From NCBI GenBank assembly GCA_964017185.1, contig OZ024884.1, positions 17,764,048 to 17,828,047 on the forward strand: a stretch of 64,000 nucleotides of DNA. The letters are read 5' to 3'. Numbering within the stretch: position 1 is the stretch's first letter; every line of letters begins with the position of its first letter. Under the pieces are notes generated by a model that saw only the letters and a list, made by a program, of their open reading frames with translations, was not told where the DNA came from and made no database searches. Below are positions 27,618 to 63,345 of the stretch, one piece after another. The DNA comes from Rugalucina vietnamica. Lineage: Eukaryota; Mollusca; Bivalvia; Lucinida; Lucinidae. The position numbers were made by a program, and so were the translations under genes.

Positions 27618-27892
27618 CATCAGGAAAACATGTCCGTGTTATACCCCCTTAAAAAGGTACAAGTAGGCAAAGATCAGGAAAAGGCTCAATCAGAAAATGA
27701 TCCCCACTCCAAAAACCGTGATGGAAAAACTGGGGTTCGCAGGGGGATACCTAATTTTTCTTATTTTTGCTCCAAAACGTAGATTTTTGGTACGCGTTAT
27801 AACCGCCACAGCAAAATATCAAAATTAGACTTTTGACAGCCAAAAAAAGAAAAAAATATATATGTATATTGCATGGGCAAGTTTTAGTAATG
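27618..27892. mobile_element. PAL copy 1, split by a Penelope-like 3' end
   Basis: It starts CATCAGGAAAACATGTCCGT and ends GCATGGGCAAGTTTTAGTAATG-like, the two ends of the PAL element. The central palindrome is reduced (GGTACGCGTTATAACCGCC without its mirror arm). The left C/G stem is interrupted after ACCCCCTT by 77 bp of a Penelope-like terminus. Confidence 0.75.
27651..27727 (-). mobile_element. Penelope-like 3'-end fragment P3
   Basis: Only the last ~77 bp of the family (AAAAAGGTACAAGTAGGCAA...), inserted inside PAL copy 1. An extreme 5' truncation. Confidence 0.8.
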
Positions 27893-28072
27893 AGTACTAA
27901 ATCAACGAAAAATAATTATTTTTCGGCCAGTTTGGTCAAACACATAGTTTTTATGTTTAAGGCACGTTGTTATAAGATATTCTGCAGTTATTTTCAGCTA
28001 AAATTACGTAAACCATCATCTTTAAGATGACAAATGTGCTATGAAACTTTAAGAAATTTATGAAACTTTAAG

Positions 28073-28250
28073 AAAAGCCCTAACTTGTTCTAAAATTTAC
28101 ATTTAGTTATGGTAAGATAACCTTTGTGAAAATTCTTGACTTGTTAATCAGGAAAGAAAAAAAACTTGACTTGATTTGAAATTTACACTTAGTTTTGGCA
28201 AGATAACCTTTGTGAAAATTTATAACTTGTAAATCAGGAAAGAAAACAAA
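28073..28250 (+). repeat. Two tandem ~83-bp units
   Basis: The pattern ACTTGTTCTAAAATTTACA...GATAACCTTTGTGAAAA...TCAGGAAAGAAA occurs twice in succession. A third diverged unit is at 39125-39295. Confidence 0.65.
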
Positions 28251-28916
28251 ATCACATTTAACTTGCAAAAGCAGAATTTAGAAATTCTGAAGTTTAAAAC
28301 AAATTATTCTAGTACGTGGGTTGGGATTTAAGTTCGTAGACTTTCTTAATAAAAGTTCAGATGTACATCACACATAAATAAAAATGATATCATCTGAAAG
28401 CACATTCTTTTACCTTTCTTATAAAATATTAAGCATAGTTCTAATCATAACAATTTCGTCACAACAATTAATTAAACACAATGGCCTTTTAACAACCGGG
28501 GCACGCCGTGGAAATTTCGACGTCAAAACTACTTCAAATTTCAATAAATATCAGCATTAAAATGCTTTGTTTAGAACAAGACAACACGCCATACCGTTAC
28601 TTGTTTGCAAGATTTCCTTCAGGGGTTTGTTGATTATTTAAATTTAAATGTATCATGAATATTCGAGGTTTAACTTAAGATGCTGACCGTAGCGATTGTA
28701 GATTAATTGTAGTTGTGTGCATTTCTCATCGTGTAAAATTCAAGAACGTCCATCTGTTCTACAACGGTATTGCAATTCCGATCATTTTGAATGTTTCTGT
28801 GAGCATTTATGCTACTCAAACATAAAATGTGATCATAGCTCTTGTTTAGACGTTGTTTGTCAACGCCATTTTTCTTTCCCTAAGAAACGCGACTGGCTTT
28901 ACATTTTCTCGAATAA

Positions 28917-31165
28917 CAAAAAGGTACAAGTAGGCAAAGATCAGGAAAAGGCGCAATCAGAAAAAGATTCCCACTCCAAAAACCGAGGTGGGAAAAAACC
29001 AAACTAACAATCAAGTACTTATACCATGGAAACATTTCGTAAGCCGAATGAGCAGCTATTTTCCCAAAAGGTGGCCACTCAGTTACCTTAACTTAACTAA
29101 CAATATTAGAACACACAGCAGAAAAATATTTTAAACACCAAGACATTAAACAAAAAGAACCACCACAGAAGTATCGACTTGGAACGATCAGTAACACAAA
29201 GTTACTGGCGGGTTTAAATCGATTTTACATGGCCATAACCTCACCCTCAGCTTCTGCAGTGGTTCATAACATTTAGTTGGTTCTTCGGTCCTCGTGGTGA
29301 ATCTCTAACTAGTCAATGAATTATCAAGAACAAACAAATAAATTATGATAACATCCTGATGAATCAAAAACCATGACTCACAGATTCAGTAGGCTGCCCG
29401 AAGATGGCAATCCCTGGGCGCCCAATAACTTACTAACTCCGGAGCACAGGAAAAACATCAGTTGGACCCCGGTGGGCTAAGCAACAGACAAGAAGCTCCG
29501 GCCCCAACCAACTATAATGAATAGCTTTAAGTCGGGGCCATCATAGAGTCTGATGCCCGACCCACCGGCGTGCAATTAAAGAAGGCAGCATATTATCAAC
29601 CGTGATTGGGTTACAATTTAAGCATGCAGACTGTCGCATAAAATTCAAGTAATAACCTATACGTCTGTAACGTGTTATGATTTTTCTAAACTGAAAAGAA
29701 AAATCATTACTTCCTGTAAGTTTCTTAAATTTGTAAACCAAGTCACCATAAAATTCTGGTTCCGAAAGGCTCTCACTTAAAAGCGTCTTTAACCCAACAG
29801 TATATTTGGAAATCAATTCATAGTGTCTACGATAATATTTAGAAAAGGTTTTTCGAAGTTTATGATACCGATAGCCCTGTTGGAGAAGTTTTGCCGATAA
29901 ACATTTATTTCGAGCGTTGAAATCTGTAACATGATTGCAGACTCTAGCAAACCTAATAAGTTGCGAAATGTATACACCATAAGGAGCACGACGAGGAACG
30001 TCACCATCCAAAAACGGAAAAAATTACTATATCAAAATCAAAGTCATCGCGCTTATCATAATTTTTAGAAGACACAAATCCATTTGCAACAGAAAGATGT
30101 AGATCTAAAAAGGGGGCTTTGGTATCCGAGATATTGGCTTTGTTCAACTGTAGTTCAGATGGATAAATTTGATTGACCATACCTTCAACATAAGGGTTGT
30201 CAATGTTCAAAAGGTCATCGAGGTATCTAGAAGTGGAATTAAAAGCCTCGATAACAACAGCTTGATTATCATGGTTAAGAGAATCCATTAAATCTCTTTC
30301 GTAGTAGTATAAAAATAAATCAGCTACGAGAGGTGCGCAATTCGAAATTCCAACAATTTGTCTGTATAACTTCGTCCCAAATCTAATATAAATATTATCC
30401 AGGAGATAGGGTAAGACATCGCACACATTCTGACATGACCAAAGTGTATACCGACTTTGGTAAGAGGAAGTGAAAAAAGCCTTTTTGTCATTACATGCCA
30501 AATAAAGTGAACCATAGTTTTTTAATGCCCTTTTGAAGGTCCACTTTATCAAATCCAGAAGTTTAATTAGATTATGTGGTAAAGTTGTATACAGAGTAGA
30601 AAAATCATATATGGACAAGCTCGCCGCACGGAACCCTCTACACTTCAATTTATTGAGCACCTCACAAGAATTTTTTATTGACCAAAACCAATTTTTATTA
30701 CTGTCTCACAGTATCTTATAACATGAGATTTGATAGCAGTAAGACAGGCAGTTAATAATTTAGAAAGTTCAGTAGTAGTACAAGATTTAGAATTTGCAAA
30801 ACAATCTAGCTTTGTATGGTCTGCTGTGAAGCTTAGGTAACCAATACATCGTAGGAAGTTTGTCTTGGCCTTCATTGATACAAACAGAAAACTTAACAGG
30901 TACATGTAAATCGTTTAATAAGTGGGCATTAACTACAGACATTTCATCAGTATCTGTCTCCAGATAAGCCCTGGTACCATCAAGCTCCTGTTTTAAGGTG
31001 TTAACTTTTCCATTCTTTAAGAGCATAATCCTCAACACCCTCTCGTTTACACCATCGATTACCCAAATCATTCAATGCAGATGCAATCTCCTCTCTACAT
31101 TTGTCGAAATTATGTAGGAAGGGAATCTATATTTCGGAAAATCAATCTTCGACATAGTGTTTAAA
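28917..31165 (-). mobile_element. Penelope-like retroelement copy P4, longest of the family
   Basis: The left edge AAAAAGGTACAAGTAGGCAA is the shared 3' terminus, followed (minus strand, 3' to 5') by about 620 bp of noncoding sequence and the decayed coding region. It is inserted in LIR-5. The 5' end near 31165 is set by where coding similarity stops, so it is approximate. Confidence 0.75.
29541..31155 (-). pseudogene. Reverse transcriptase of the Penelope-like copy P4, frameshifted
   Basis: Reading down the minus strand: NFDKCREE-type N-terminus near 31100, KLPTMYWLPKLHSRPYKARL (30900-30800), YDFSTLYTTLPHNLIK (motif A, D present), KLYRQIVGISNCAPLVADLF (motif B, with a residue pair lost after GI), SRYLDDLLNI (motif C, DD intact), APFLDLHLSVANG, then YGVYISQLIRFARVCNHVTD and a long basic thumb/connector to MRQSACLNCNPITVDN. 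At least three frames are needed, so it is inactive. I place it with Penelope-like RTs on the YLDDLL, LPKLH and FLDL blocks. A GIY-YIG domain is not visible at either end, so the assignment to a Penelope subgroup is open. Confidence 0.75.
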
Positions 31166-31476
31166 ATTTTACATGAAAATAACAAAATGATACTACAATG
31201 CCTCAAATTTATTTAGCTCAAGTTTTGGCCTATTGTATAGTTTTAATGGTATGTTCTTCAACGTCATATAGCTTCATAATTATTCAAAATACGGCGTGCC
31301 CCGGGAAGCGAGACCTAAGTTGCTATGGAGGCCATTTTTATGTGTACGGCGCAAGATTTCATAAAACATATTGTAAACACGAAAGAAGGGGACTTTGTTT
31401 CTATATTATAATGCATCAAATATTGGATAAATGTTGTAATAGAAAATCAGTCTACGAACTTAAATCCAATCTATCG

Positions 31477-34053
31477 TAAACAAAAGAGTTTATTTAATTA
31501 ATTTCTTTGCAATTTTGACCAAAATATCACAAAAATATTTCAAAAATTAAAATCAGAAAACTCAGTTAAACCTACGTCTGCTCTCAACAAAAGAATAATA
31601 GACCTTGGGAAAACCTAAGCACTCGCTTTTATATTCCCAGATTACTGTATCCCAGATCCCGGAGTAAAATTGCCTGAAATTCCAGATCCCGGGCAAAACA
31701 ACTCAGGGAGTCCGAGAACCCAAGGCAAAATCCGCTGGGGTCACATGATCCCGGCCTAGAAAATCCAGGGAAGATGTCGCACATTAGACTTTGCCGATGC
31801 CCGCCATCATGGACTTTGCCGAAAAACTAATACAGACACTTGAATTCATGCAGAAAATTAAAGGCCTCCCTGAATGGAGTAAACTAAAAAGGTATAAAAA
31901 TGACACGAAAATGATCCTGAATTATAATTTATCTAAATGGCTGATAGGGTGAGATAACTTGATTCTGTACCGATTAAGTAAAATTGACTGTAACAAAATT
32001 GACAAAGTAGAAATCCCTGTGTTCTGTTTTTATTGATACACCTGCACGCTTACACAAATCAATACCCAAAATGCACCACTAACACAGCAACAAAGTGGAG
32101 GTAAAATGACATGTGAGGCTTTGGGTCTGCTTAATTAGGGACAAACAATCGCGTAAGGTACAAAATCATGGATTAAAATACTGTAAACCATCGGTAAGAA
32201 CTTTGTCTACAAAAATGCCGAGTGTCATTTGAGCAAACCAAGCACGAACCCAATTTTAAGCCATGCACATGAAAAATGACCGATCTGCTGATTTGTAAAC
32301 AATCAAAACATACAGTTTGGACGTTAGGTCACATAATTACCCCCTCCATTCAGGGTCGTTAAAGTCCCATCTAACGATCCTGAACAAAAGCACTGACATT
32401 GATACAAATTACAGGAATAATTAACATCAATATGACATGTATATTTAAAACATCCTGGTAACGGCACCAAAAATATGGTGTAGTGCCAAAAATTAGCAAC
32501 TTTCACAACACAAACACTTGAAATAATCTCACATTCAAATGCCATGACTAGAAGTTGGCAGTAAAATTCAATTAAATTAGATTATTTAAATATATGCAAG
32601 TTGAACACTGAACCTTAAATATGAAATTGAGTCCTCCGTAAAACCACCCATCATTAATATTTATTTTATATTGACCATTCAAATCTGCACATTAGCTAAC
32701 GGTCAATGACGGTGACCAACACGTGGGTTAGACAAACAAACCAACACGTGCTTTTTACAGGTAAATACAGGTGCAAAAACACAATGTTTGTCTAAGGAAA
32801 TAGGGGTGGGCGTGGCTATACCTTGCTGGCGGAGGAGTCAATTGCAAATAAAAGACTAATTTAATGCTTCACTTGAGACCAAGTTAAGATATTGACTGAA
32901 AATTTCTCATATTCACCTTAAAATGGAAAGTACATTAATATGAAATGATGCTTTAAGGGAACATTTAACAAAACCACTTGAAGACGCTGCATCAGTTTGA
33001 ATACTTAAATGCTTAATTCCATACACCTTAAATGACTTGACCTAACGAATGATGAATGATGATTTAAATTCTGAACAAATAATGGATAATTGATCAAATA
33101 CTTCAATATAACCACTGAAGACATGTATGTGTCACTCAAGTTAAGTTTACTTTCTCTACGCATTTACGAGTACATTGAATGAAAATATAATACATTCCTT
33201 GTTTACAAATTCAACCACACTGAAGACAATTGGCTTCCTAACGCGACCACGCGAGAGACATGAACTTTGTTACATAAAGGCATGTAATTAAATACGAGTT
33301 AAATAACATAGATTGCAACTGACAAATTTTAACAAAATATTCAGAAGCCTGTTATCATCATTGTACAATATGATAATTATTACTTTAATCACAACACCAA
33401 TAACCAACTTTCACTATTAAAGTTCCTTGTAATCATGAATTTGTCCACTAATCACCTGACTTGACTTCTTAGTTAACTGTCAGTTGTATCATGAATGATT
33501 TATCCACTGTCACTATTATTATTTGTGACATGTTTTAATAACTTGAAACTTTGCAATATTAATGTTTCTCCTTTCCTATTGCCTATTTCTTTATGCATTT
33601 CAGAGGTAGCTTATTTCTTCTATTTGTTTAGTATCATTTGATTGTATAGTACTGCATTCATCAATCATCTTTCATCATCTTTCATCATCATACAGGTTGT
33701 CCCATTTATGTGTATTTCCGTTTGATTTTGTTCTTGTCCTGATTACTTTAAATGTGGGGTTTTCTGTCTGTCATCATTGTAATAACTTTTTACGCAAGTC
33801 TTTGACACTGTTTTCCGTGTATGTTTTCCCCAAGACTGAGTTTACCGTGTTTTTTTTTTTGTGTGTTTTTTCTCTCCTCATTATTGTTCTTATCCTTCGC
33901 GTCTTTTGTCTTCTCTTTATTCTTTACAACTCCACTATTTGATCCTTTCTTACCCTTCTCTCCACATTTCATCTCTTAAGATTACCTTCTTTAATTCTGC
34001 TGTCTCTTTTTGCTCCGCATCTCTCCTCCGAGCCTCTCTCCTTTTCTCTGCCA
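31477..34053. other. Nothing recognised
   Basis: About 2.6 kb of AT-rich sequence. A short cluster of 'cagatccc' repeats lies near 31640-31760. No supported gene or mobile element. Confidence 0.4.
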
Positions 34054-34830: not shown

Positions 34831-35188
34831 TTTTGGTTCATCACTTTCTACATCTTTGAGTCGCTCTGACAGGCAACCACTTGGTGTTTTGCACCTGTAA
34901 ACAGTGACATAACCTGGGGCCGCTGAAATGTTACCTCATTTGATCCTTGGAAGTAAGTAGGATGCCTTCTCACTTGCACCATGCGGAGTCCTTGCTGGCC
35001 ACAGCTGGTTGACTTGCATACGTGAGTCCTGGCCTGCCACATGAGTCTGTTAGATGGCTTGAGCTCCCTAAGCCGAAGCTGCCACCTCCACTGTCATGAC
35101 TTCCCAGACTGCTTCTTAAGGAAGTATAGCAGACTTTCCTCCCGTGTAAATTTAGCCATATCTGCTTCCCATATCTAATATCTAATAT

Positions 35189-35533: not shown

Positions 35534-35715
35534 GCATTCGCCGCTTACTTACGAATTTCTGTTTCGACTCGATTCTATCTAACCTCGCATAGCCTCAGCT
35601 GCGCATAGTCTAGATTAAGAAACCTTTTTTCTGCGAGGCAGTTACTCATAAGGTCTATCAAATCCGCGTCTATAAACCGGTTTTAGTTTCTGGAGCTCCC
35701 CTCATATAACACTCA

Positions 35716-38582: not shown

Positions 38583-38648
38583 CTTGGTTCAAATCTCCCG
38601 AACTGATTAATGAATCAGATCATTGCACCGCCGGCCACCACAATTTTA

Positions 38649-39295: not shown

Positions 39296-39299
39296 TTTA

Positions 39300-39355: not shown

Positions 39356-39379
39356 TTTATAAAAGAAATCATATTTATC

Positions 39380-39450
39380 ATTTTTCAATGAAAATTTCAA
39401 TTTTAAATGCTGAAAATTCTCTGTATATTGCATGGGCAAGTTTTTGTAAT
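39380..39450. mobile_element. PAL fragment (right end only)
   Basis: AATTTCAATTTTAAATGCTG and TTGCATGGGCAAGTTTTTGTAAT match the right end of full PAL copies. The rest is absent. Confidence 0.6.
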
Positions 39451-40828: not shown

Positions 40829-41790
40829 TTAAATCTGTGACGAAAGTCTACTGCGATCGTCCGATATACAATGTATCAAGTAACTAGTGTTTACAAGTAC
40901 AAATGTCATGTTGCAAGTAAATAAAGTGTATAAAGTGTATAGTGCAAATGCATTGACATTGCCGATTGGCATCGCGCGATAAAGTTTTGTAAACGCTTGA
41001 AAAACAAAACGACACCTATCAGTTTTATTTATTTTTTTCCATTTTTTTGTCATTACGAAAACATGACCATGCAATAAACAGAGATTTTTTTAGCTTTAAA
41101 AATTGAAAATTTTCAGCTGAAAAATTTTGATATTTTTCTTATTTTTGCTCAAAACATAGATTGTGGGTACACGTTAGAACCGCCTCGCCGAGGCGGTTCT
41201 AACGAGTACCCACAATCTATGTTTTGGAGCAAAAATAAGAAAAATAGGTATACCCCTGCAAACCCCAGTTTTCCTATATAAAAGTGGGGTTCAAGGGGGT
41301 ATACATTGCACGGACATCATCGGTTTTCCTGATGTCATGTGAAGCAAGTCACGCAATATTTACCATTATAGAGTATCATTTTTTGAAAACATGTTTATTT
41401 CGATCAACAAATGCATGTCTTTGTCAAGGGTAAAGTGGCACGGTCAAAGTATTTGCACTATACAAATACTAAACGTTTTGTTGTAGAATACTCTTGTATA
41501 AAAATATCTCATGTTGTAAATTGCTAATTTTACACATGTCAGTGAATTGCTATAATTTACCAATATGTACATATACGACCACGAACCGCGCTGCAAATCA
41601 AATTTTACTCATGTGTACAAATACAAATGCCAGAATCAGTGCAACCGCCTCCCTTGTGTCCTTTTCGAATGCAGTAGTCCACGCACGTTTCGAGAGATTT
41701 CCCTAAACAACCATGACCCCTCCCGCTAAAAGGAATAAGATATCTGTTAAGATCTGGGACGATCGTAGTAGACTTTCGTCACAGATTTAA
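40829..41790. mobile_element. Element D copy 2, TTAA-flanked, carrying a PAL copy
   Basis: Termini TTAAATCTGTGACGAAAGTC (40829) and its inverted copy ending at 41790 are near-identical over about 34 bp. TTAA at both outer edges would be a 4-bp target duplication as in piggyBac-type insertion. The interior has no transposase and includes PAL copy 2. D ends are also seen at 39645-39670 and 43650-43680. Confidence 0.7.
41051..41334. mobile_element. PAL copy 2, complete
   Basis: It starts CATTACGAAAACATGACC and ends GGTTTTCCTGATG, so it lies inverted relative to copy 1. The central palindrome spans 41139-41241 with arms meeting at CGCCTCGCCGAGGCG and only a few mismatches. The second stem ACCCCTGCAAACCCCAG ... 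GGGGTTCAAGGGGGTA lies at 41250-41304. Confidence 0.88.
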
Positions 41791-45262: not shown

Positions 45263-46669
45263 AAAACAATGACTGGAAATGAAAGACAAAATAATTTATA
45301 GTGTATACACGATGGACAGCATTAAAGGTTACAACTCCAAGACTTTATTTAGAAAATATCTTTTGCTCATAAAAGGTTATTCAAGGAAAACTTCTTGTTT
45401 AAAAAGGATATCTTAAGTACCGCAACAAGGGCGTATATTTGAACGATCACTGATATATTTATGAATTTGTAACGTCAAATGTAAAAAAGACTTAGTCGAT
45501 GAACGGATACACCACAATGATAGAAAGAAAAACAAACGTAAGCAAACATTCTTTACTCACAAAGTAACTGCAACGCAATGGCTAAAGTTAACGTGTATAA
45601 CACAGACATGGTCTCTAGATTTTCTGGTTGTTTATAATATACAGTCTTATGTATCCTTGATAATTGTTTCAAATCTTATTAAATAGCAGGTATACCGGGG
45701 CACATCAAAACGTCCATGTTTTAATGTTTGTTTTATTTAAAGTAAATTTCGAGTATCAGTGTCAAAATAAAGCAAATGGAAAGAATTGTTTGCTTTTTGA
45801 TCAATGCTTTTGTTTTTAAATATCGCTATGCAGGAAACTAATGCCAAATTAACATAGCAAAACATGCAAACTACTACATTTCTTCTGACTTTGAACATTA
45901 AAATATCTGGTTTTCAATGCATACTTGTGTGCAATTTGATCATTTTCATTTGATCTGAACAATTGACCCCTGAATAGCAGTGAGAAATATGAATCAATTC
46001 GTACAAAAAACATGAGCAGATATTAATAAATTCGAACATCTATACATGTACATGCACTATATACGATATATCAAGGACAAATGCTTAATACGAGGGTTGT
46101 TCTTTAATGCATGTCATTTGCTCGATTACTTGTCCTGTGGACAATGTAGGAGAATGATGTTTATATATGGTGAAAGCTTAATCTTCTTGGTCAGACTGGT
46201 ATCAAAATTATTGCTCTCTGACTCCCGGTCGTATAGACATCACCTTCTTAAACAGGGTACTATATTGTTTTCCAGTTAATGTAATTTCGATCACTTGTAT
46301 AGAAAATGTTGTAACATTCGCAACAATATGTACATGTACAAATCTGCTTTCATTTTACACATAAACCTGCCACTCTTATGGGCATTAGAAAACACTTTTG
46401 TAGAATGTTTTCACTTTGAATTTATAGAATTATTGCCACTGCATTATGACGTCATAGTGTTTTCATTATACACCATTTAAAATAACTGAACAGGTTACGT
46501 CTTTCATGATTTGCATATTTTGCAAAATGGATTATGTGGTAAATATTTCAGATTTATTGTTATCTAAATTTAACCAAAAATGGTCTATACATGTATGGAC
46601 AACCCCTATAAATTGCTAAATTGGCAATTTAACAATTACGTCAGGTTTAAGGTAAAGCGGTCACACAGC
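45263..46669. other. Nothing recognised
   Basis: AT-rich, with no supported coding, RNA or repeat feature. Confidence 0.4.
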
Positions 46670-46770
46670 TTCTAACGAGTACCACAACTTACGTTTTGGA
46701 TCAAAAATAAGAAAATTAAGTTAAAACCCTGCAAACCCCAGTTTTTCTATATAAAAGTTTTCCTGTTGGA
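46670..46770. mobile_element. PAL fragment (copy 3)
   Basis: TTCTAACGAGTACCACAACT, a half palindrome, then CCTGCAAACCCCAGTTTTTC and TATATAAAAG. The other half is missing. Confidence 0.65.
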
Positions 46771-47348
46771 TAAAAAAAAAACATAGCATGGCCTTGAATA
46801 AAAACAAACAGTTCTTGAAACCTGCACGTAAATATTGCTCTACCGCCGACCGTCGGTCGGAAAATAGAGAAACTGTGATTAAAGTTCAACAAACGCTTGC
46901 CAAAAATTACATAAAATGTGAATTCATTGAATAATTTGATTGTAAAAAAAATCGGCGCATTCCTTGTATTTAGCATAAATGTATGTATCAAATATTGTAT
47001 CTGCCAGAGTTTGTATATTTGGTGATCACCATTTACACAGTAAAACTCAAAAAAGGACAATTCCCACAAATCGAACCCACCCCACAAACTGGGCATATCC
47101 CACCAGTTGCTCAGTTTGTGGGATTAGCCAAGTTTGTGAGTCCTATTTCACAAAAGGCTTAACCTACACGTCGTGATTTATATTACCCGCTTTTTACGTA
47201 AACCCTTCCGGTAAGAGGATTTTACCTGCTTTATCCCGATAAAGTATTGAGCTACATGTATTAGGACACAGAGCCAAATGTCGCCTTTGACACGACAATA
47301 TGAACATTTGGGGCGTTTTGCGGAACTGTGTCTGGTGAGCATCAGTAT
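46771..47348. other. Mostly unrecognised; short inverted repeat at 47083-47124
   Basis: CCCACAAACTGGGC and GCTCAGTTTGTGGG form a small imperfect hairpin. A 126-codon minus-strand frame at 46716-47096 is AT-rich, Phe-rich and overlaps PAL sequence; not called. Confidence 0.4.
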
Positions 47349-47494
47349 AACACGTCCGTGCAAAATACCTCCTTACATCCCACTTTTATATAGCAAAACA
47401 GGGGTATGAGGGGTATACCTATTTTCTTACTTTTGATCCAAAACATAGATTGTAGGTACTCGTTAGAACCCGCCTCAGCGAGGCGGTTTTGTTG
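47349..47494. mobile_element. PAL fragment (copy 4)
   Basis: It has the left part from CACGTCCGTGCAAAATACC through the C/G stem (CCACTTTTATATAGCAAAAC AGGGG) and the central palindrome tip CGCCTCAGCGAGGCGG, then breaks off. Confidence 0.7.
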
Positions 47495-48013: not shown

Positions 48014-48121
48014 CCCAGCGGGCACATGACGTCAAAATGACGTCATATCAACGTCGATGCGACGTCATGACGTCGCATCGACGTCGATCTGACGTCATTT
48101 TGACGTCATGTGCCTGCTGGG
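48014..48121. mobile_element. 108-bp palindromic element built of TGACGTCA-like units
   Basis: CCCAGCGGGCACATGACGTC at the left mirrors GACGTCATGTGCCTGCTGGG at the right. TGACGTCA-type octamers occur at least four times, with GACGTCATGACGTC at the axis. It is a nearly perfect single hairpin. TGACGTCA equals the CREB/ATF binding site, but here it may only be part of the palindrome. Confidence 0.85.
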
Positions 48122-49088: not shown

Positions 49089-50077
49089 AAATGAATAGAA
49101 GTCAGTGTTCTAGTGATTTTCTTGCATTTTTAATTTGCAATGTTTGAATAGGCTTTCATGTGCGAAACACAAAAATGACAATGTGTTTGAGTTCAAATTT
49201 ATGATGTGAGAAACTGGGGCAATATTTCCTCATGCAGCAACTTTTATAAGATTTGACAGTCGTCACATAATGGCAAAGTGCAAGGCCATGGTCAATCAAG
49301 CGTGAAGAATACCCGGAAAATGGGAAAAAGCGTTTTGACCAATCAGAACACAGCTTAGTGATCCCTAATCCGTAGAACAAATTTAATGGCTTTAAAATGT
49401 TTGTTGGCCATTATTGACTAAATGCTGCCAGTAGAGTTTGCCAGGACAACTTTTTTTTCTAGCAAAATCATCCCTGTTTTATGTGGCGTTTGGGTTTGCA
49501 TCTCATATCTTAGTTATACAAAAATTAAACAACTTTTCTGAAGACAATAAAAGACGTTTATTTGTTTATAATAGTATAATTGGTCAAATAGGTCACTGTA
49601 TAAGCGGCAACTTTAATATTCATATCTGGGCGTGGTCGGCTAGTCCTTCTGTTCAAGTAGGGAGATTATAGGGAAGTCGAACTCAGTCAGCCTAGAGTGC
49701 TGGGCCACATATTTACCGTTAGAGATCAGCTACCTGTATTTTGTCCAGTCCAGTGAATTAGACATATCGTTTTTCATTCGTATTTTCTAACGGAAAAAAT
49801 GTGAGTTGAATCTTTCAACTGTATACCTTTAGCTTTTACCTAGGTCAAACGTAGACCATACCCAATAACGTATTCATGAGGTAACGCCCATACAGTAGCC
49901 TATTTGCCGAATTATGTATCTAACTTTCATATACATGTATAGTATCATACATGTTTTCCAATATACTTGATTGAACGCCATTTTCTGTTTTCTTCCACTG
50001 TAAGGCTTTCCCAATGGAGCAAAGAGAAACTTAGGTACCTCAAGAGTTACCAACAAAACATTTCATAAGGATGACAT
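49089..50077. other. Nothing recognised
   Basis: No supported coding or repeat feature. Confidence 0.4.
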
Positions 50078-50245
50078 GTATATACATGAAACGCATTACC
50101 CTCTTAAATCCCACTTTTATGAAGTATAACCGGGATATACAGGGGGTATGCCTATTTTCCCTAAATTTGATCCAAAGCATAGATTTTGGATTCACGTTTG
50201 AACCGCCTCGCCGCTTATAACGTACAGTCTACGTTTTAAGCAACT
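50078..50245. mobile_element. PAL fragment (copy 5), decayed
   Basis: TTAAATCCCACTTTTATGAA, GGGGGTATGCCTATTTTCCC, GATCCAAAGCATAGATTTTG and GAACCGCCTCGCCGCTTATA follow PAL order up to just past the palindrome centre. Confidence 0.6.
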
Positions 50246-50464
50246 CTTTTTAAAAAGTCAACCGACAAATGTCTTAAATTCTGTGATCACTGCATGGACA
50301 TATTGATTGCATCGTAATGCCAAGGCGGTGTTACTGTAGTGGTTGTAATAGTGCAATGTTTTGATTTTTATTTCTGAACTGTACATGTATGTTCACTGAT
50401 GTTGAAATTCATATACATGTATTTAGCTAACTTTAGGTAACGCAGTTTGGCTGACAATCGTTAG

Positions 50465-50912
50465 AACACCAAGGAAACATGTCCGTGAAATGTGTACTCT
50501 CTTAAATCCATTTTCATATAGAAAAGTTGGGGTTTGCAGGAATATATAGTGCCATTTCACGCAGTGAGCCGTAAATGTACTTTTAAGGTTTACTCCATTC
50601 CTTATTTCAGGTAAACCATCTTACTGATAATGTCTTATAACAACACTCTTCCATTTTAAGTCTCTATGGCTGTTAAGGTCTGATTGCAACACCTCCGGGC
50701 CATCTTTATTTTTACAACAGAAAAACATTTCCGTATTAAATATACTCGCTCAAAACCCATTGGCCAGGCGGCTCTAACGTGTACCTACAATCTATGTTTT
50801 GAGTTAAATATTCAAAATGTGTGTTTGTTTTTTTTTTTTCTGATATTTCTTTTTTAATTTTTACAGCTGAAAAAAAAATATCCGTAAATTTAATTGGCCA
50901 GTTTTCGTAATG
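50465..50912. mobile_element. PAL copy 6, decayed and interrupted
   Basis: Left end GGAAACATGTCCGTGAAATG to about 50550; the right half resumes near 50745 (CAGGCGGCTCTAACGTGTAC, ACAATCTATGTTTTGAG) and ends CCAGTTTTCGTAATG at 50912. The ~195 bp between them are unassigned. Confidence 0.6.
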
Positions 50913-51576: not shown

Positions 51577-51609
<33 letters not shown>

Positions 51610-51620: not shown

Positions 51621-51751
51621 TTGCGTTTTTCGGGATTTTACCTAAAGAAAGTGCATGTGGTTTGGGTATGCTGCAAATGCTGAAACTGCAAACTCGAGTG
51701 AAAGGGATGTAAATTCTCTGAATTCGCTTGATTCCTTTCCCAAACAAAGGA

Positions 51752-51956
51752 CATCACGCTTACATGTCCATGTAATAAATACCCCCTTATAACCCACTTT
51801 TATCTAGAAATAAAACTGGGGGTTTAAAGGGGTTTACATACATTGTTTTTTATCCAAAACATAGATAGTAGGTACTCGTTTGAACCATCTCGTCAATGCA
51901 GTACTTATGTGTACCCGCAATAGATGTTTTGAGCAAAAAGGTTCCCTCTTCCTGTT

Positions 51957-51987
<31 letters not shown>

Positions 51988-52045
51988 CAATTTTTACTGA
52001 TTCCAAAAATACTACTATATATTACACGGGAAAGTTTTCGTAATG
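51752..52045. mobile_element. PAL copy 7, end to end but decayed
   Basis: CATCACGCTTACATGTCC start; CCCACTTTTATCTAG...ACTGGGGG stem; CATAGATAGTAGGTACTCG; palindrome tip lost (GAACCATCTCGTCAATG); T run 51957-51987; end GGGAAAGTTTTCGTAATG. Confidence 0.7.
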
Positions 52046-54774: not shown

Positions 54775-54854
54775 TTTATTGTCGGAGACTAAATTAAATT
54801 TATTAAGTATAAGGGTCGTTTGAAAACCGATGTTGCTCACTTTGCTGCACATTT

Positions 54855-55145
54855 CATCAGGAAAACATGTCCGCGCGATATATACCCCCTTAAACCCCAC
54901 TTTTATATAGAAAAAAAAACTGGGGTTTCAAGGGGTATAGCTAATTTTCTTATTCTTGATGCAAAACATACTATGTGGGTACTCGATAGAACCGCCTCGG
55001 CGAGGTGGTTCTAACGTGTACCCACAATGTATATTTTGAGCTAAAATATCAAAAATATCCAAAATTTTCTAATGCAAATTTTCGATTTTTACAACTTAGG
55101 AAAAGTCTGTATATGTACATGTACATGGGCATGTTTTCGTATTAT
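54855..55145. mobile_element. PAL copy 8, complete
   Basis: CATCAGGAAAACATGTCCGC start about 80 bp after the fucosyltransferase stop; C/G stem ACCCCCTTAAACCCCACTTT / ACTGGGGTTTCAAGGGGTAT; central palindrome around CGCCTCGGCGAGGTGG; end ATGGGCATGTTTTCGTATTA. Confidence 0.82.
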
Positions 55146-55798: not shown

Positions 55799-55804
55799 GT
55801 AAAT

Positions 55805-56094
55805 CATTACGAAAACATGCCCATGCAATAAACAGAGATTCTTTTAGCTTTAAAAAATGAAAATTTTCAGCTGAAAAAATTTGATATTTTTCTTATTTTT
55901 GCTTAAAACATAGATTGTGGGTACATGTTAGAACCACCTCGCCGAGGCGGTTCTAACGAGTACCCACAATCTATGTTTTAGAGCAAAAATAAGAAAAAAA
56001 AAGGTATACCCCTGCAAACCCCAGTTTTACTATATAAAAGTGGGGTAAAAGGGGTTAAAGGGGGTATATATTTCACGGACATGTTTTCCTGATG
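55805..56094. mobile_element. PAL copy 9, complete, 6-bp target duplication
   Basis: CATTACGAAAACATGCCC to TTTTCCTGATG. Central palindrome 55891-55992 (tip CACCTCGCCGAGGCGG). GTAAAT stands on both sides (55799-55804 and 56095-56100), the clearest target duplication among the PAL copies. Confidence 0.88.
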
Positions 56095-56180
56095 GTAAAT
56101 TAATCATGGAGTTAAAGTAATTTACCGGAAGCTACATCGACCTTTTTAAGGTGGCGATTTCGATGCATTCCCTTTTTAAT

Positions 56181-56467
56181 CATCAGGAAAACATGTCCGT
56201 GTAATATATACCCCTTTATACCCCACTTTCATATTGCAAAACTGGGGTATGCAGGGGTATACCTATTTTTTCTTATTTTTGCTCCAAAACATAGATTGTT
56301 GGTACTCGTTAGAACCGCCTCGGCAAGGCGGTTCTAACGTGTACCCACAATCTATGTTTTGAGCAATGATAAGAAAAATATCAAAATTTGTCAGCTGAAA
56401 ATTTTCAATTTTTAAAGCTTAAAGCTTAAAAAATCTCTGTTTATTGCATGGGCAAGTTTTCGTAATG
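56181..56467. mobile_element. PAL copy 10, complete
   Basis: CATCAGGAAAACATGTCCGT to GCAAGTTTTCGTAATG, opposite in orientation to copy 9 and only 86 bp away. Palindrome 56270-56372 (tip CGCCTCGGCAAGGCGG). The two adjacent copies could themselves form a large inverted pair. Confidence 0.88.
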
Positions 56468-56626
56468 TTATAAAATCATTAATGTGTTATTCATTTATTT
56501 TATTTCCTATAACATGTTTACTTATTAGATTTAGGTGTAATACATGTGTGTACTCTTGCCCTCAGAGATGCCTATAGTGACGTATAGTGTAATTTGATAC
56601 TAATTAAAGCAGATACTGCGATTAAT

Positions 56627-57065
56627 AGACATTTTTCACTTTTGAACGTAAATGCTGCTGGCGCTTGCGGTTACGACTTTGTGTGTGATGGGCGACGACT
56701 CGTGAGGGCATATTTGAGACGAAGGCGAGGGGTGATATGAAGAATTACTTAGTCAAAACTACCAACACCCACCGGAGGTGTATTAAATGAGACACGCAAA
56801 AAACGAAATTGTCCAAGACGAATAGCTGAATAGTTCAGTAGGTAGAGTGTAAGATGTAGAATCGAAAGGTCCTGGGTTCGAGTCCGGGTAGGACAAAAAT
56901 TATTTTTCCTTTTCTTTGTTTCTTCCTTTTTTCGCACCTGTGACATTAAAGCTTAAAAAATTAAAAAGAAATAAAAAAAGGAAAAAAGAAAATAAAATTT
57001 TATCTATTGGCAAATGCAAGAATCACAAAATGCAATGCTGCATTTAATACTAAAATCGTAAGTTT
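56627..57065 (+). mobile_element. tRNA-derived repeat (family S2), copy 1
   Basis: AGACATTTTTCACTTTTGAA, GCTGCTGGCGCTTGCGGTTA, CTCGTGAGGGCATATTTGAG and AGAATTACTTAGTCAAAACT recur inverted at 62172-62580. A tRNA-like core lies at 56823-56897 (A box TAGTTCAGTAGGTAGAGTG, B box GGTTCGAGTCC), followed by a T-rich run. The shared TGGCAAATGCAAGAATCA is near the 3' end. A tRNA scan may call the core as a tRNA, but its arms are imperfect. Confidence 0.75.
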
Positions 57066-57146
57066 CTGGATTAAACTGTCTAGTGAGAAGGCAGACCGCA
57101 TGTATAGGTTTTTTATATAGGTCTTGTTGGAAGCCGAGATATTGAT

Positions 57147-57250
57147 CGTCATTAGAAGAACGGATCAGCGACCGATCCTAACGTCAACATTTATTTCCTG
57201 ACTGGCTGGTACAGATAATGTGGATAGGATAAGCTGACCGCCTCTAATGA
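57147..57250. repeat. Short imperfect palindrome
   Basis: GTCATTAGAAGAACGGATCA on the left mirrors GATAAGCTGACCGCCTCTAA TGAC on the right with several mismatches; about 104 bp in all. Confidence 0.5.
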
Positions 57251-57266
57251 CTAAAAAAATACGCAA

Positions 57267-57500
57267 GCGTCCCCCGTGGCCGAGCAGTTCAGAGCGCTGT
57301 TTCATAATCACTGAATCATCTCACCGTTGTGTCTGGTGTGAGTTCGAGACCCACAATGGCCACATGTGAGACAGGCCAAGTTCTGTTTGCGGGTGTGCCA
57401 GGCGGTTTTTCTCGGGGTACTCCCGTTTTCGTCCCACCTACTGTTTGGCGCTTTTCATATGAGCTGAAATAATCTTGAAAGGGACGTAAAACTTAATTTT
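57267..57500 (+). mobile_element. tRNA-Leu/Ser-like SINE (family S1), copy 2
   Basis: CCCCCGTGGCCGAGCAGTTC head, GGTGTGAGTTCGAGACCC B-box region, TGTGAGACAGGCCAAGTTCT, GGGTGTGCCAGGCGG and CTTGAAAGGGACGTAAAACT tail. Older than the 39683 copy; the target duplication is no longer clear. Confidence 0.82.
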
Positions 57501-59025
57501 AACAAATACACAAGACACCAAATCAAAAAGTATAGTCACCGTACATGTTCACATATATGTGTATTACGTATTAGATGTAAAAATACAGTTTCACGTGCTA
57601 TCTCGTGAGCGAACGATGTTTATTTTGTCGATGTCTCGTTTTGAGTCCATTCGACAGTAGGAAGAGCGATGGGGGCAATACCCTACATGTAGCTACAATA
57701 TGCCTAGCCACACAACTGTTTTTGTTAATTGTAGACTTTCAACAGTATTTCTGCCATATCGAGTGCGATGGTTACGATGTAGAAAATTAATTTGGCAAGA
57801 CATAAGCTTTCGTTCTGATCCTCATTTATTCTGTGTGATAGTATGCGTGTTGTTTCACCTGGTTGAATTCAAATAAATAAATTAAAATCAAACTAACACA
57901 ATTATATTATTTTCATGAGTTTCTAAAGTGTTTCCGTAGAGGACGCATAGTGTTTCAGTCGCCCCAAAGTTTACTTTTGATGTTCGCCATTTTCACATAC
58001 ACGTAGAAGCAATTTTGGACACTACACATTCTGTCAAAGTGCACACATTATTCATTTGTTTCACAAATAATGGTGTATACAGTCTTCACATTGACACGTG
58101 TTTTCTTAAGATTATTGCCTCGTGTATTGTCCCTTTTAACAGAATGGACGCTGGTCTTGTTTGGAAAGAGCTAGTAATTTTGTTTTTTATGCCTGTTGTT
58201 AAATTGCTTGTGATGTGTTGCACCGCCATGTCTCTCCCGCCTGGTGTCTATGTTAGGATGGGAAATTTAATTGTATAGATTCTTGGTCATTCTATTGTTA
58301 CTTGATTACAGATAAGGGTCTCATTGTGCTCATTTCTGATCATAATGATGCATTTTTATACAATTTTCGGCCCGTTCAAGATTATTTTAGTTCATATATA
58401 CGGGTAAATCAGTAACAGGAGGAAAAGAGGAGAACCCTGAGAAAACGAACTTGCACACCCACAAACAGAACTTGGTTTTGTGTCACCCTTGATTGTATTA
58501 CTGATCAATTGGGCAGCAACCTAAGGCGAAGAGTTCATTGTCTTGGTGTTGGTAGTTGCCAAAGCGATATTGCTGCGCTGAAGGTTGTTTTAATCCATTT
58601 TATCACATGTTGTGTGATGTTGCATCAATCTTTGTTGTAAGGACTTTGATTGTATCGCAAGCATATACGATGGTGCTGACACTGATAGACAATACCCGAA
58701 TACACATATTCATGTACAGTATACCACGCAGACATTTCACGTGTCCATTTACCGACCTTTTACACAAACGTACCGCCATTCATGATTCTAACATATATAC
58801 ATGTAACAGGGGAAATCTAATTGTGTTGTGTTTGGCTATTGAAATTTTGTCCTAGGGCCCATCGACAAAACAAAGATCATATCAAGCCGGATCAGTTATC
58901 AAACCACATTGCAGCTTGGAAAGCCGAACGCAGTTGGTGTTTAGGGCATGCGTTCTTTTGTCCTTTTTTAACATTTAAAAGTACGATTTCTATCATGATA
59001 AAGTTTATACTGAACCTATTAAGCA
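57501..59025. other. Nothing recognised
   Basis: Three plus-strand frames of 61-99 codons are present but none has a family motif or consistent splice context. Confidence 0.4.
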
Positions 59026-59190
59026 AGCCTCTATGGTGCAGTGGTTATTTCACGTGCCTTATAAACCAGAGATGGCAGGTTTGATCCGGGTCTTCTTGAG
59101 TCTGTCGGATGAGACTATAAACTGAGGTCTCGTTTCCATATGACCTTTGCTGTTGGATTAACGCTCAAATCAACAAACCGATTCAATTTA
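59026..59190 (+). repeat. tRNA-like SINE fragment (family S4)
   Basis: CCTCTATGGTGCAGTGGTTA (A-box-like) and GGCAGGTTTGATCCGGGT (B-box-like), then GTCTGTCGGATGAGACTATA. A single copy in this window, so family status is inferred. Confidence 0.5.
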
Positions 59191-59349
59191 TTATTTATTT
59201 AAATTCAGATTGAGTAAGAAGCTTATGTGCTTATATGCTTGCCCGATTCCGGACGTAAAGATGGGTCCGAATGAGTAAGGTTGAGAATGATCAACGTCAG
59301 CATGTGTAATACATGTGCATTAAAACGGTACCCTATATCATGACGATAT

Positions 59350-60394
59350 CATTACAAAACCTTATCAAGCAAAATACAGTGTTTTTTTTTTTTTTAAGTT
59401 GAAAAAAAAATGAAAATTTTCAATTCAACAGTTTTGATATTTTCTTATTTGTTCAAAACATAGATTGTGGACACAAGATAGAACGAATACTCACAATCTA
59501 TGTTTTCAGAAGCATAGACAACCTAAGTTGACCTTGTCTTATAACAGGTTAATGTAATCCCTGGATCATATATAGACTTTGTAGATGCTTCATGCCAAGT
59601 TTCAAAATCATAGGCCTTTTGGTTCTGAAGAAGAACAATTTTAAAGGTTTTTCAATTTATAGCCATGGCGGCCATTTTGGTCAAGTTACCTTGACATTAA
59701 TACAAACTTTCGTTCCCCTTCCACGAAGTTTGGCTTTGATCGGCCATGCGGTTGCAGAGAAGATGTTTAAATATTATAGTCATATACATGTATATATCCC
59801 CCAGGCAGGAGCTGACAACCACCCGGGTCTTAATGTTTTCATAAAAATAAATCTGCCCATTTGTATTATCATAGCAAGTTTCCACCCATTTAATTACATT
59901 TAACTAATTTCCCCATTTAAATGCATGGGCGACCTACATGTAAGTTGATCTTACCGTAAAATAGGTCAAGGTCATCCCAGCGAAATGATTTATACAATCT
60001 TTGTAGTGCTTTTAATATTGTTTGATGCTTCATGCCAAGTTACAAAATCATAGGCCTTCTGGTTCTGGAGAAGAAACATTTTAACGGTTTTTGCTATTTA
60101 TAGCCAAGGCGGCCATCTTCGTCATGTGACCTGGTCCATTTATGCAAATTTCGTTCCCCCTTCCTAAGAATGCTCCGCAAACAGTTTTAACTTTGATTGG
60201 CCAAGCTGTTTCAGAGAAGAAGATCATGGTAATTGTTGACAGACGACGACGGACGGACGACGGGGCATGGCCATCCTATAAGCTCACCGGGCTCATGTGA
60301 GCTAAAACTAGATATACCCCTGCATACTCAAGTTTTGCTTTATAAAAGCGTTGTTCAATGGGGTAAACATGTCACGGACATGTTATCCTGATGA
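59350..60394. mobile_element. PAL copy 11, split by an R2 insertion
   Basis: The PAL left part (CATTACAAAACC start, ACAATCTATGTTTT) stops near 59513. The right part resumes near 60305 with GATATACCCCTGCATACTCA and ends GGACATGTTATCCTGATG. Between them is an R2 repeat. Confidence 0.75.
59514..60304 (-). mobile_element. R2 repeat, second copy, inside PAL
   Basis: Inverted relative to 3248-4478. The terminal GAGCTCACC-type end is at its right (AAGCTCACCGGGCTCATGTG AGCT, 60281-60304), next to a GACGACGGACGG tract. It contains two diverged body units (GCGGCCATTTTGGTCA and GCGGCCATCTTCGTCATGTG). The CTCAGGTGAGCG end is missing. Confidence 0.8.
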
Positions 60395-61077
60395 GGATAA
60401 CAGACCATGCTCGATATTACTTAAAATGTGTCAAAACGTTGTAAGGCGTAGAATAAAAAAAAAAACTGCACATAAAATTAAAGATCAACTAAATGTTTCA
60501 AATCGTAAATCTTGCCATGTTTACATGTAAAAGGAATTCTGTGTGTTCACGAAAAAAATGTGAAATGTAGCTAAACAGAACCAATGTACGTATATACATG
60601 CACCAGTATGTTGAAAGTCACATGGCGATAACAAATAGTTGATAGTTGTTTTCCCACCAACAGTTATCGTCATATGCAGACGGGATCTCGGTTTATAGTG
60701 TCACCATAAAGCCATGGGCAGCTCAGAATTGAGTAAGCGATCCCTAGTTATACACACGAGTGTCAAAAATATTCTGCACTGGAAGCTGTTTTATTCGCGC
60801 CAAGCATTTGTAAGGCCGACTCGCGTTGAACGCGTAATGTATCGTTAATGGCAATCATGACAGTTGATGATGCGATTTTGTAAACATGTCGTGTCAAAGG
60901 CCACTTCTGGTTCATTGTTCAATTAGAATCAGACAGTTAAACGGGAAGACAACAATAATCATTGTTACCATTGCATATGATAACATTGTTTACGATTTAT
61001 ATGTTTAATTGCTGTCTGGATTTCTTTATTTTGGCATTTTACCAATGCATATAGGTTTTAAGTTTTTATTTATTTTA
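60395..61077. other. Nothing recognised
   Basis: AT-rich, with no supported feature. Confidence 0.4.
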
Positions 61078-61275
61078 TTTTTTTTTTTTGTTTTGTCCCA
61101 GTCAACATTTGTTTCAGTCATGTCGGGACGGAGCCAACGCTTCCTGGGTTTAACCAGTTAGTAAGGAGTTAATGTGTCTTGCTCAAGGACACAACACGGC
61201 TGGCGCCTGTGGGGATCGAACCCAGGACCTCTCAGGAGTCAGACGCCCTACCACTACGCCACCGCGCTCCCTAAT
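61078..61275 (-). mobile_element. tRNA-derived SINE (family S3), best copy
   Basis: Read on the minus strand: GGGAGCGCGGTGGCGTAGTG (A box), CCTGGGTTCGATCCCC (B box), then GTTGTGTCCTTGAGCAAGAC and TGACTGGGACAAAAC, ending in an A-rich tail (T run at 61079-61088). The order matches the decayed copies at 25575 and 6365. The TGTCCTTGAGCAAG block is a widespread SINE body motif in aquatic animals, as far as I recall. Confidence 0.8.
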
Positions 61276-61381
61276 AATTTTGTACCAGTCTTATATCAAC
61301 TACATGTACGTATTTATTCTCGACATGTGATTTTACGTAGCGACTGACTGAACCACTGCGACATGAAGTCATCTACGGAAC

Positions 61382-61383
<2 letters not shown>

Positions 61384-61426
<43 letters not shown>
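61384..61426. repeat. (TG)n microsatellite
   Basis: About 21 uninterrupted TG units. Confidence 0.97.
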
Positions 61427-61428
<2 letters not shown>

Positions 61429-62171
61429 CGCATAAAGAACATTGTCGTCCTGTTTTAGGGTAAGCAAGATACGTTATGAAAAAACGAACTGTATGTTTCT
61501 CAGTCTATAAACATTCATTTTCTTGAAAATGATACTGTTTTAGTTTGAAGTTTAATTATACTCGTATTTATTTGAATTCACCCAGATAAACATCACGCAT
61601 AGTTCAAGAGAATAAAGGAGGATCCTTTGACTTGGAAAAAACATCCCAAAAATCGTAATTATCGCATTCAAAATGCTGAAATACTGTGGAAGGTCTACAA
61701 AACCTCAACTTATTTCTATGTCTATGCAAAATGTAGCTAGGATATCGCACTTATGACTTGCAGATGATTGTCTAATGGACTCAAAACGAAACATCAACCG
61801 TATAAATAACATCAAGATTTCGAGTATCTGTTTGAAGTACATGTATAAACATGCCAAAATAAATTATGTTCTCTCACGAGACAGCACGTGGAACTGTAGG
61901 TCTTACACCTAATAGATATACATATATCTTTACATGTACACTATACAGTGTACTATTTGAGTTAGTGCCTACGTCCGCGGAAAACATTTTTAAGTCGTTC
62001 AGGTCCTAGCCACATTATGCCTGTACAAGCCTTCAGTATATTCATATTTTCATGTCTCCCAGAAAGAAATATTGACGCGAGGATAGATCAGCTCTTATAC
62101 CAAAAATACGATCGAGCTCCCAATACAAGAGAAAACATACATGTGGGCTGCCGTCTCAAACTTCAATTCCT
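61427..62171. other. Nothing recognised
   Basis: AT-rich, with no supported feature. Confidence 0.4.
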
Positions 62172-62580
62172 TTACGATTTAAGAATTTAATGTAGTAGGG
62201 CATTTCATGATTCTTGCATTTGCCAAAAATATAATCAGCTGATAATATATGTTTTATTTCCAAAGCACTTTTGTCACAAGAGAGACAAATAAAGAAAAGA
62301 AAAAAGTGATGCGTCCGGGACTCGAACCCAGCACCTTGCGCTTTCAGTTCCAAGCACGCTAGCTACTGAGCTACAGAGCTAGACGTCCTACGCTATAGCA
62401 TTTATTGCATGTCTTATTTCATTCGTCTTCGTCGGGCTATTGGTAGTTTTGACTAAGTAATTCTTCATATCGTCCCTCGTCTTCGTCTCAAATATGCCCT
62501 CACGAGTCGTTCCCCATCACACGGAAAGTCATAACCGCAAGCGCCAGCAGCAGTTACGTTCAAAAGTGAAAAATGTCTGA
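62172..62580 (-). mobile_element. tRNA-derived repeat (family S2), copy 2
   Basis: Inverted relative to 56627-57065 with the same block order. The tRNA-like core at 62308-62385 (minus strand) reads CTCTGTAGCTCAGTAGCTAG, then TGCTGGGTTCGAGTCCCGGA, better preserved than in copy 1. A T-rich run follows the core on the minus strand. Confidence 0.78.
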
Positions 62581-62839
62581 TATGCATCGACGTTTGGAAA
62601 ATACCTTCTATGGTTACAATTAGTATCAATTTGTTATATTGTAAGGCACATAACTCACTGATACTTTCAATGCAGTTATATTAGAAAATTCCATAGTGAA
62701 ATGCAGAGGATTGTTTATCTTTTGTAGAGAATGCTAGATACTTGAAAACAGATAACAACCTATGTTTCATTTAACATGTTTAACACTAAACATGTCTATT
62801 CTAAACATTGTTGTTATCACTTATTTAAAGTTGTTAAAA

Positions 62840-62965
62840 GATTGAATTTTATGGGGTACCTCATATTACTGGAACTGTTGTGCATAATTGGAAAAATGAA
62901 GATGATATTTTATGGGATGTCTCATATTACTGAAACTGTTGTGCGTAATTGGAAAAATACACGAA
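62840..62965 (+). repeat. Two tandem ~66-bp units
   Basis: TTTTATGGGGTACCTCATAT, TACTGGAACTGTTGTGCATA and ATTGGAAAAAT recur once with few changes (TTTTATGGGATGTCTCATAT and so on). An 80-codon frame spans both; its repeated peptide is not evidence of a gene. Confidence 0.8.
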
Positions 62966-63058
62966 TAAAGATGAATTCAGTTATTAGATTTGTCGTATTA
63001 TGTTTCCATGTAATCTAAATTTTTGCGTGTATCAAGCAACTGTGTAAAAAGCTGCATA

Positions 63059-63345
63059 CATTACGAAAACTTGCCTATATTGTTTTAAATTAAAAACATT
63101 TTTTTTTTTTTTTTTTAAGCAAAAAAAATGAAAAATTCATTGGATTTTTTTTATATTTTTAATAAATTTGCTCAAAACATTTATTGTGGATACACCTCGC
63201 CGAGCGGTTCTAACGAGTACCCACAATCTGTGCTTTGGATCAAAAATAAGAAATAAGTATGAATGACCTGACTACAAGTCCAGATAACTGGTATATCAGG
63301 AGAACCGTATCCTTGTAATGTATACCCCATTATACTCCATTTAAT
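63059..63345. mobile_element. PAL copy 12, decayed
   Basis: CATTACGAAAACTTGCC start, long T run, GCTCAAAACATTTATTGTGG, tip CACCTCGCCGAGCGGTTC and TAACGAGTACCCACAATC. The C/G stem is degraded (GTATACCCCATTATACTCC). The right end is unclear. Confidence 0.65.

Follow-up and report, generated by a model that had tools for sequence, protein, structure and literature searches.

Conventional miniature inverted-repeat transposable elements (MITEs), derived from Tc1/mariner, PIF/Harbinger or hAT transposons, are short, non-coding and AT-rich, have inverted ends and reach high copy numbers. Helentrons and their non-autonomous partners, as portrayed in passages of PMC4067079, make no target duplication and use a TT target, and the same passages give Helitron2 inverted repeats and palindromes at both ends, with the repeats being asymmetrical. 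Spy, a DDE element of the PHIS superfamily, is presented in part of PMC4482050 as distinct for its absent duplications and inserts within AAATTT, and in bivalves the modular MITEs treated in a portion of PMC5139131 comprise the pearl family, DTC84 and CvA, of which DTC84 has a conserved palindrome. The element considered here, PAL, recurs in a 64,000-nucleotide stretch of Rugalucina vietnamica DNA (assembly GCA_964017185.1, contig OZ024884.1, positions 17,764,048 to 17,828,047; hereafter, the window). It is best read as a non-autonomous, MITE-like DNA transposon family of ~279 bp that integrated without duplication: its ends are fixed and number in the tens of thousands genome-wide, no duplication accompanies its integration, and its junctions prefer TT/AA. 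PAL is presumably mobilised via these ends by a protein encoded elsewhere. What kind of enzyme would that be?

The PAL consensus is 279 bp long, roughly the ~290 bp proposed in an earlier note on the window, and runs from CATCAGG to CGTAATG. The imperfect inverted ends that this note had described are indeed there, as terminal inverted repeats of 28 bp at both tips (CATCAGGAAAACATGTCCGTGCAATATA at the 5' and CATTACGAAAACTTGCCCATGCAATATA at the 3' end), and so is the C/G-rich stem, a hairpin at consensus positions of about 29-82 that is confined, as had been claimed, to the left side. The almost perfect central palindrome, put at ~100 bp, is present and turns out to measure 121 bp (consensus 83-203, tip CCTCGGCGAGG). 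The right arm (204-249) is weak and AT-rich and, by analysis of paired changes among the copies, is not conserved as a hairpin. Folding of the strands, a check that the note had proposed, gave far better energies than shuffling: the RNA of window 56181-56476 (a PAL copy plus 9 bases) reaches -132.2 kcal/mol, where shuffled sequences average -56.0 (z -16), and the DNA of copy 41051 reaches -91.1, with -25.7 after shuffling (z -17.7). The single strand folds in these models into an outer stem with internal arms, and full copies are thereby predicted to form compound hairpins. Judged from length and hairpin structure alone, PAL is non-coding.

A profile hidden Markov model, started from four copies in the window and then refined with copies from the genome, was run over the window (nhmmer, E<=1e-4) and yielded 18 PAL pieces, corresponding to about 15 insertions once parts are joined and covering 3,114 bp (4.9%). 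All 13 places listed earlier fall on these pieces and represent one repeat, in both orientations as stated; the list nevertheless lacked the pieces at 461-538 and 60304-60393, counted as single each of three places (63059, 27618 and 50465) that consist of two pieces, and set some starts 2-14 bases off. The high density noted in the right part of the window holds, with 13 of the 18 pieces starting at or beyond 46 kb. For comparison, 40 kb made up of 20 arbitrary stretches at round-number coordinates contain 4 pieces (592 bp, 1.5%) and 72 kb around 30 sampled copies contain 10 (2,165 bp, 3.0%), so that the right part of the window is rich in a family that occurs everywhere.

In the whole 1.09-Gb assembly (47 contigs, nearly all of it in C1-C17, with the window in C16), PAL retained common boundaries, one of the two outcomes that the earlier note had named as support. 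The 5' end (32 bases, <=3 mismatches) was found at 30,137 places and the 3' end (30 bases, <=3 mismatches) at 56,161, with 0 for either reversed control. The 3' ends thus outnumber the 5' ends, for patterns of slightly different length, and a sister family having only the PAL 3' end in common is possible. Seventy loci with an exact 5' end were taken in map order. Of these, 54 extend to the common 3' end, 47 as a single piece and 7 as two; the other 16 include four cut by repeat T and one by repeat X (both described below) and one that stops at position 271. Median divergence from the consensus is 6.1% among 93 copies and 6.8% among 55 copies that were either drawn from the window or picked for an exact 5' end, both samples favouring well-preserved copies; CpG positions are no more decayed (0.067 versus 0.077). 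Full-text searches with the end and palindrome sequences retrieved no paper, 12-base ends returned only unrelated titles among the 20 of 23 matches listed, and topic searches gave no title naming PAL among the matches listed. Two exact matches in prokaryote contigs to a degenerate 21-base PAL pattern were taken as chance.

PAL is short, has terminal inverted repeats and occurs as many copies with fixed ends, all of which are general traits of MITEs; a target duplication of fixed length, another such trait, is missing. Similarity among copies stops abruptly beyond both ends, where the flanks are merely AT-rich. When the 30-bp flanks of 93 full copies were compared for exact direct matches, 2-bp matches were found in 22 copies versus 9.5 after shuffling, half of them AA, and matches of 3, 4, 5 and 6 bp in 5, 0, 0 and 1 copies versus 2.9, 0.7, 0.2 and 0.1; matches of 7-11 bp were absent from all 93, so that none of the lengths between 3 and 11 bp stands clearly in excess. 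The lone 6-bp match (ATTTAC, window 55805) may be due to chance. The first flanking base is identical on both sides in 51 of the 93 copies (28.9 after shuffling), far fewer than a 1-bp duplication should produce.

Empty sites tell the same story. They were sought by comparing 119 joined-flank queries with other sequence retrieved from the genome; rows whose junction core is nearly all A/T were dropped before inspection, and 13 queries aligned across the junction. Four sites rejoin exactly. The case of L096 is very strong, with 14 of the 14 rows shown (of 35 crossing) running straight through and no base gained or lost; fewer relatives are available for L065 (four of six rows clean, two lacking one A in an A-run, and one clean row in the 119-query search), for L057 (a clean junction in the best of three rows, with gaps close by in the other two) and for L023 (a single, clean relative). 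Set aside were L107, ungapped at the junction and only 70% identical; L045, L148 and L111, which lie in A or T runs; L104, which is weak; and L003, L064, L008 and window copy 41051, with gaps near the junction. Together with the flank comparison, the clean empty sites imply that PAL, as a rule, integrates without adding a target duplication. The constant duplication on which the earlier note would have rested the family is accordingly absent, both in the 93 copies and at the empty sites, and tools that require one could miss or misclassify PAL.

The restored junction reads AA or TT at 55 of 119 sites (30 AA, 25 TT), whereas 40 kb of this genome would lead one to expect 26 (P 4e-9) and 16 neighbouring offsets give 24-42. 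AT plus TA is not enriched at the junction (16 versus 18.9 expected). The AA/TT junction is also seen in 26 of the 55-copy sample (exact 5' ends and window copies), which was not chosen by overall similarity. Insertion at TT is therefore a preference rather than a rule, and relative to TT both orientations of PAL occur alike, that is without polarity.

How could an element with such ends be moved? Because no duplication of fixed length is made, the usual superfamilies are argued against, and the reading tentatively favoured, at somewhat less than an even chance, is that PAL is moved by single-strand transfer, as the nearly palindromic substrate of HUH/Rep-type, Helentron-like machinery. In its favour are the fixed ends, the missing duplication and TT target known from Helentrons and their partners, and the scarcity of shared variants in the central palindrome and left arm. 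Such machinery would open a T^T site and transfer PAL as a single strand, either end of which could serve as the leading one, and the left hairpin and central palindrome may act as recognition or termination structures. It is conceivable that a Rep protein could start at either end precisely because PAL is nearly palindromic, which would explain the lack of polarity relative to TT. Several observations weigh against single-strand transfer. The inverted repeats lie at the very tips, a position usual for DDE transposons but atypical of Helentrons; the ends have neither boundary T-runs nor a conserved 3' stem-loop; TT/AA covers only 46% of the sites, and offset +2 is raised as well (42/119); known rolling-circle elements are polar; and no partner with PAL ends was seen among the loci inspected. 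The bolder form of this reading, that PAL is an orientation-free single-strand transposon launched from either end by HUH/Rep machinery into T^T sites, is doubtful. If it were true, the usual rolling-circle polarity would disappear, and the nested hairpins would be working parts, selected while the other interior drifts.

A DDE enzyme cutting with zero stagger is a close rival and nearly as likely a mover. PAL would then be a MITE whose two strands are joined opposite each other, without duplication, by a Spy-like, PIF/Harbinger-related transposase with another target taste. The 28-bp repeats at both tips speak for this, Spy offers the precedent of DDE elements without target duplications (as far as the consulted part of PMC4482050 goes), and DDE_Tnp_4 domains abound in the genome, all 150 scored of 415 first-look candidates matching. 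The target is harder to reconcile with it: AAA before and TTT after the element, as in the AAATTT of Spy, occurs at 0 of 93 copies, AA before and TT after likewise at none, and AA/TT is not the palindromic dinucleotide expected to be chosen by a symmetric blunt transposase. Moreover, the two loci inspected of the 150 with DDE_Tnp_4 show no PAL end, agreeing with it at no more than 17 and 18 of 28 positions. The remaining explanations are far less probable. That PAL is an ordinary MITE whose duplication was lost by decay could draw on the divergence of the copies, on the excess of 2-bp flank matches and on the single 6-bp match at 55805; however, at ~6% divergence many copies should still show a true duplication, flank matches of 4, 5 and 7-11 bp are lacking altogether, and at the clear empty sites the target is exactly as long as the filled flanks, which makes this account improbable. 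It is still less credible that PAL is stray hairpin DNA inserted at breaks by end joining without a dedicated enzyme: seamless junctions at A/T sites would suit this, yet places with these two ends number in the tens of thousands, and 54 of 70 loci have both, which suggests an end-specific enzyme. Equally remote is descent from the self-priming hairpin end of a replicon, for example a terminal palindrome of parvovirus type, spread by hairpin replication. The predicted fold of the strand, an outer stem with arms, and a palindrome centre base found in both states (G in 36 copies, C in 14, 71 of 121 being unreadable) are in keeping with it, and these two states could reflect either inversion of the tip or two lineages. 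Flip/flop is nonetheless not seen: an extra C sits in the left palindrome arm alone in 55 of 56 readable copies (in both arms in one, in the right only in none), a T/A mismatch between the arms keeps its usual orientation in 51 of 54 and is never swapped, and two exact PAL patterns have no match in viral contigs. The persistence of the extra C and of the mismatch leaves no sign of arm homogenisation or flip/flop replication.

Within the element, the right arm and the structured parts have fared differently. Columns in which a second base occurs in at least 15% of copies, are taken to mark source lineages. The right arm has 17 of 46 such columns, a count that calls for caution since this arm is AT-rich and harder to align; the left arm has 3 of 52, the central palindrome 1 of 121 and the tips together 4 of 60. 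The right-arm variants are linked (phi up to 0.93), which indicates that different source lineages were active, all with the palindrome and left hairpin kept; the structure thus seems to matter. Double changes amount to 16 versus 5.0 expected (8 paired) in the central palindrome, 14 versus 10.5 in the terminal stem, 8 versus 5.3 in the left arm and 58 versus 49.8 in the right; since the paired changes are weak and partly shared by descent, they are not counted as support for selection on base-pairing. In 11 of the 17 internal deletions, one breakpoint lies at the palindrome tip (consensus 130-150), or perhaps in 10 of 16 events, given that L052 and L053, about 6 kb apart, carry the same deletion, and self-similarity of the arms can bias where the breaks are called. 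The central palindrome looks like a deletion hotspot and source of internal deletions.

Besides the DDE_Tnp_4 loci, two patterns were used to look for an autonomous partner with PAL ends. The pattern for the 28-bp terminal repeat followed by non-PAL bases occurs at 35 places, and the 20 inspected comprise 15 PAL copies and five loci (L134, L135, L141, L142 and L147, the first two copies of each other) in which the PAL end becomes other DNA within about 30-100 bp. Abnormal continuation after PAL position 90 occurs at 95 places. Seventy-one of them end in TAG and, judging by these three bases, would fit an extra T followed by the beginning of repeat T. Among 14 inspected of the other 24, 12 continue as PAL (including L159, with repeat X inside; L153 and L154 are copies of one another) and two, L160 and L162, lead into other DNA, L160 being a rearranged PAL end. 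Apart from these, a DDE_Tnp_4 group on C1, C3, C4, C5, C8 and C15 has equal or near-equal scores of ~92 bits and mostly a 392-amino-acid open frame, which suggests recent transposition; the single locus of the group inspected, L163, has no PAL ends. It does contain a weak palindrome-like stretch (9.8 bits, E 9e-4) that looks like a decayed PAL fragment.

PAL is also a landing pad for other repeats. Repeat T begins after a T-run with a hairpin (AGCTCACCTGAGCC...GGTGAGCT) followed by a GTCC-rich microsatellite, and in L058 and L061 it forms tandem units of roughly 460 bp. Five pieces with a PAL 5' end and repeat T at position 90 raised the possibility of a longer, composite PAL, which was rejected on the strength of the genome-wide starts of repeat T: of 27,728 in all, 1,588 fit position 90 of PAL and 267, in reverse, its mirror site. 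Repeat T thus seems to enter PAL on its own, at T-runs. With its T-runs, palindrome and microsatellite it looks like a candidate Helentron-associated element; a full-text search with a piece of it found no paper. Repeat X occupies the same place and orientation (about consensus 40, in the left arm) in L004, L005, L006, L008 and L078, apparently likewise in L007 and window copy 27618, and the right arm in L159, most of these loci having been chosen by a query that holds both PAL and X.

Table 1. PAL copies, their parts and the repeats inserted in them (window coordinates unless a locus is named)
Feature	Position	Strand	Basis or remark
PAL full copy, 284 bp, 5 extra bases in 5' terminal repeat	41051..41334	-	model 1-279; fold z -17.7
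PAL full, diverged copy	51752..52045	+	model 1-279
PAL full copy, last 3 model positions diverged	54855..55144	+	model 1-276
PAL full copy with 6-bp direct flank match ATTTAC, sole case in 93 copies	55805..56094	-	profile, flank comparison
PAL full copy	56181..56467	+	profile; fold z -16
5' terminal inverted repeat of copy 56181	56181..56208	+	family consensus CATCAGGAAAACATGTCCGTGCAATATA
3' terminal inverted repeat of copy 56181	56440..56467	-	family consensus CATTACGAAAACTTGCCCATGCAATATA
Central palindrome of copy 56181, approximate	56266..56380	+	
PAL copy, repeat X fragment in left arm, right palindrome arm missing	27618..27892	+	profile
PAL copy interrupted at consensus position 90 by about 790 bp of repeat T	59350..60393	-	profile
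Two parts of the split copy	59350-59514 and 60304-60393	-	
PAL copy, 5' (1-81) and 3' (140-279) parts, unrelated DNA between	50467..50912	+	profile
PAL diverged, 3' end lost	50064..50304	+	model 1-270
PAL fragment 1-153, stops just beyond palindrome tip	47340..47489	+	profile
PAL fragment 45-135	46668..46758	-	profile
PAL fragment 80-279	63059..63259	-	profile
PAL fragment 2-81	63295..63374	+	profile
PAL fragment 196-278 (3' end)	39370..39450	+	profile
PAL fragment 1-78, absent from the earlier list	461..538	+	profile
Repeat T	59515-60303	-	
Repeat T	3252	+	
Repeat T	L050, L058, L061, L080, L118		
Repeat X (GGTACAAGTAGGCAAAGATCAGG...)	27650-27730, 24070, 28918; L004-L008, L078, L159		

Elsewhere in the window, an Rfam SECIS_1 match at 29485-29552 on the minus strand (38.8 bits, cut-off 35) makes a selenoprotein gene possible, and two tRNA-like matches on the plus strand, ~1.1 kb apart (1016-1088 and 2175-2247; 39.4 and 32.9 bits), could represent either tRNA genes or repeats derived from tRNAs. 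Two long hairpins lie at 48014-48121 (54-nt arms rich in TGACGTCA) and 63886-64000 (56-nt arms).

Where, then, does PAL belong? With conventional MITEs it shares small size, lack of coding capacity, inverted ends, AT-richness and high copy number, and it departs from them in having no fixed-length duplication and in its nested hairpins and 121-bp central palindrome. Canonical Helitrons are a poor match, insertion between A and T being restricted to 7 of 119 sites and the PAL ends differing from 5' TC and 3' CTRR. The likeness to Helentrons, DINE-1 and HINE is closer and extends, on what the cited passages of PMC4067079 describe, to the lack of duplication, the TT preference, palindromic structures and high copy number; PAL differs in its true inverted repeats at the tips and in having no T-runs, no polarity relative to TT and no conserved 3' stem-loop. 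Helitron2, too, has inverted repeats at its ends, but those of PAL sit at both tips, unlike the asymmetrical ones recounted there. Spy, going by the portion of PMC4482050 cited above, is similar in its terminal inverted repeats without target duplication, yet its AAATTT motif is found at none of the 93 copies, and the two DDE_Tnp_4 loci inspected of 150 revealed no transposase with PAL ends. Like the pearl family, DTC84 and CvA, PAL is non-autonomous; in contrast to them it has no tandem-repeat core, the tandem repeat T of some copies being a separate insertion. Among eukaryotic transposons it is unusual for duplication-free integration to be combined with true terminal inverted repeats, and the copy number of PAL lets its target choice and the role of its hairpins be measured directly. 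With tens of thousands of ends, a preference for TT and no polarity, PAL stands between the DDE and the rolling-circle worlds.

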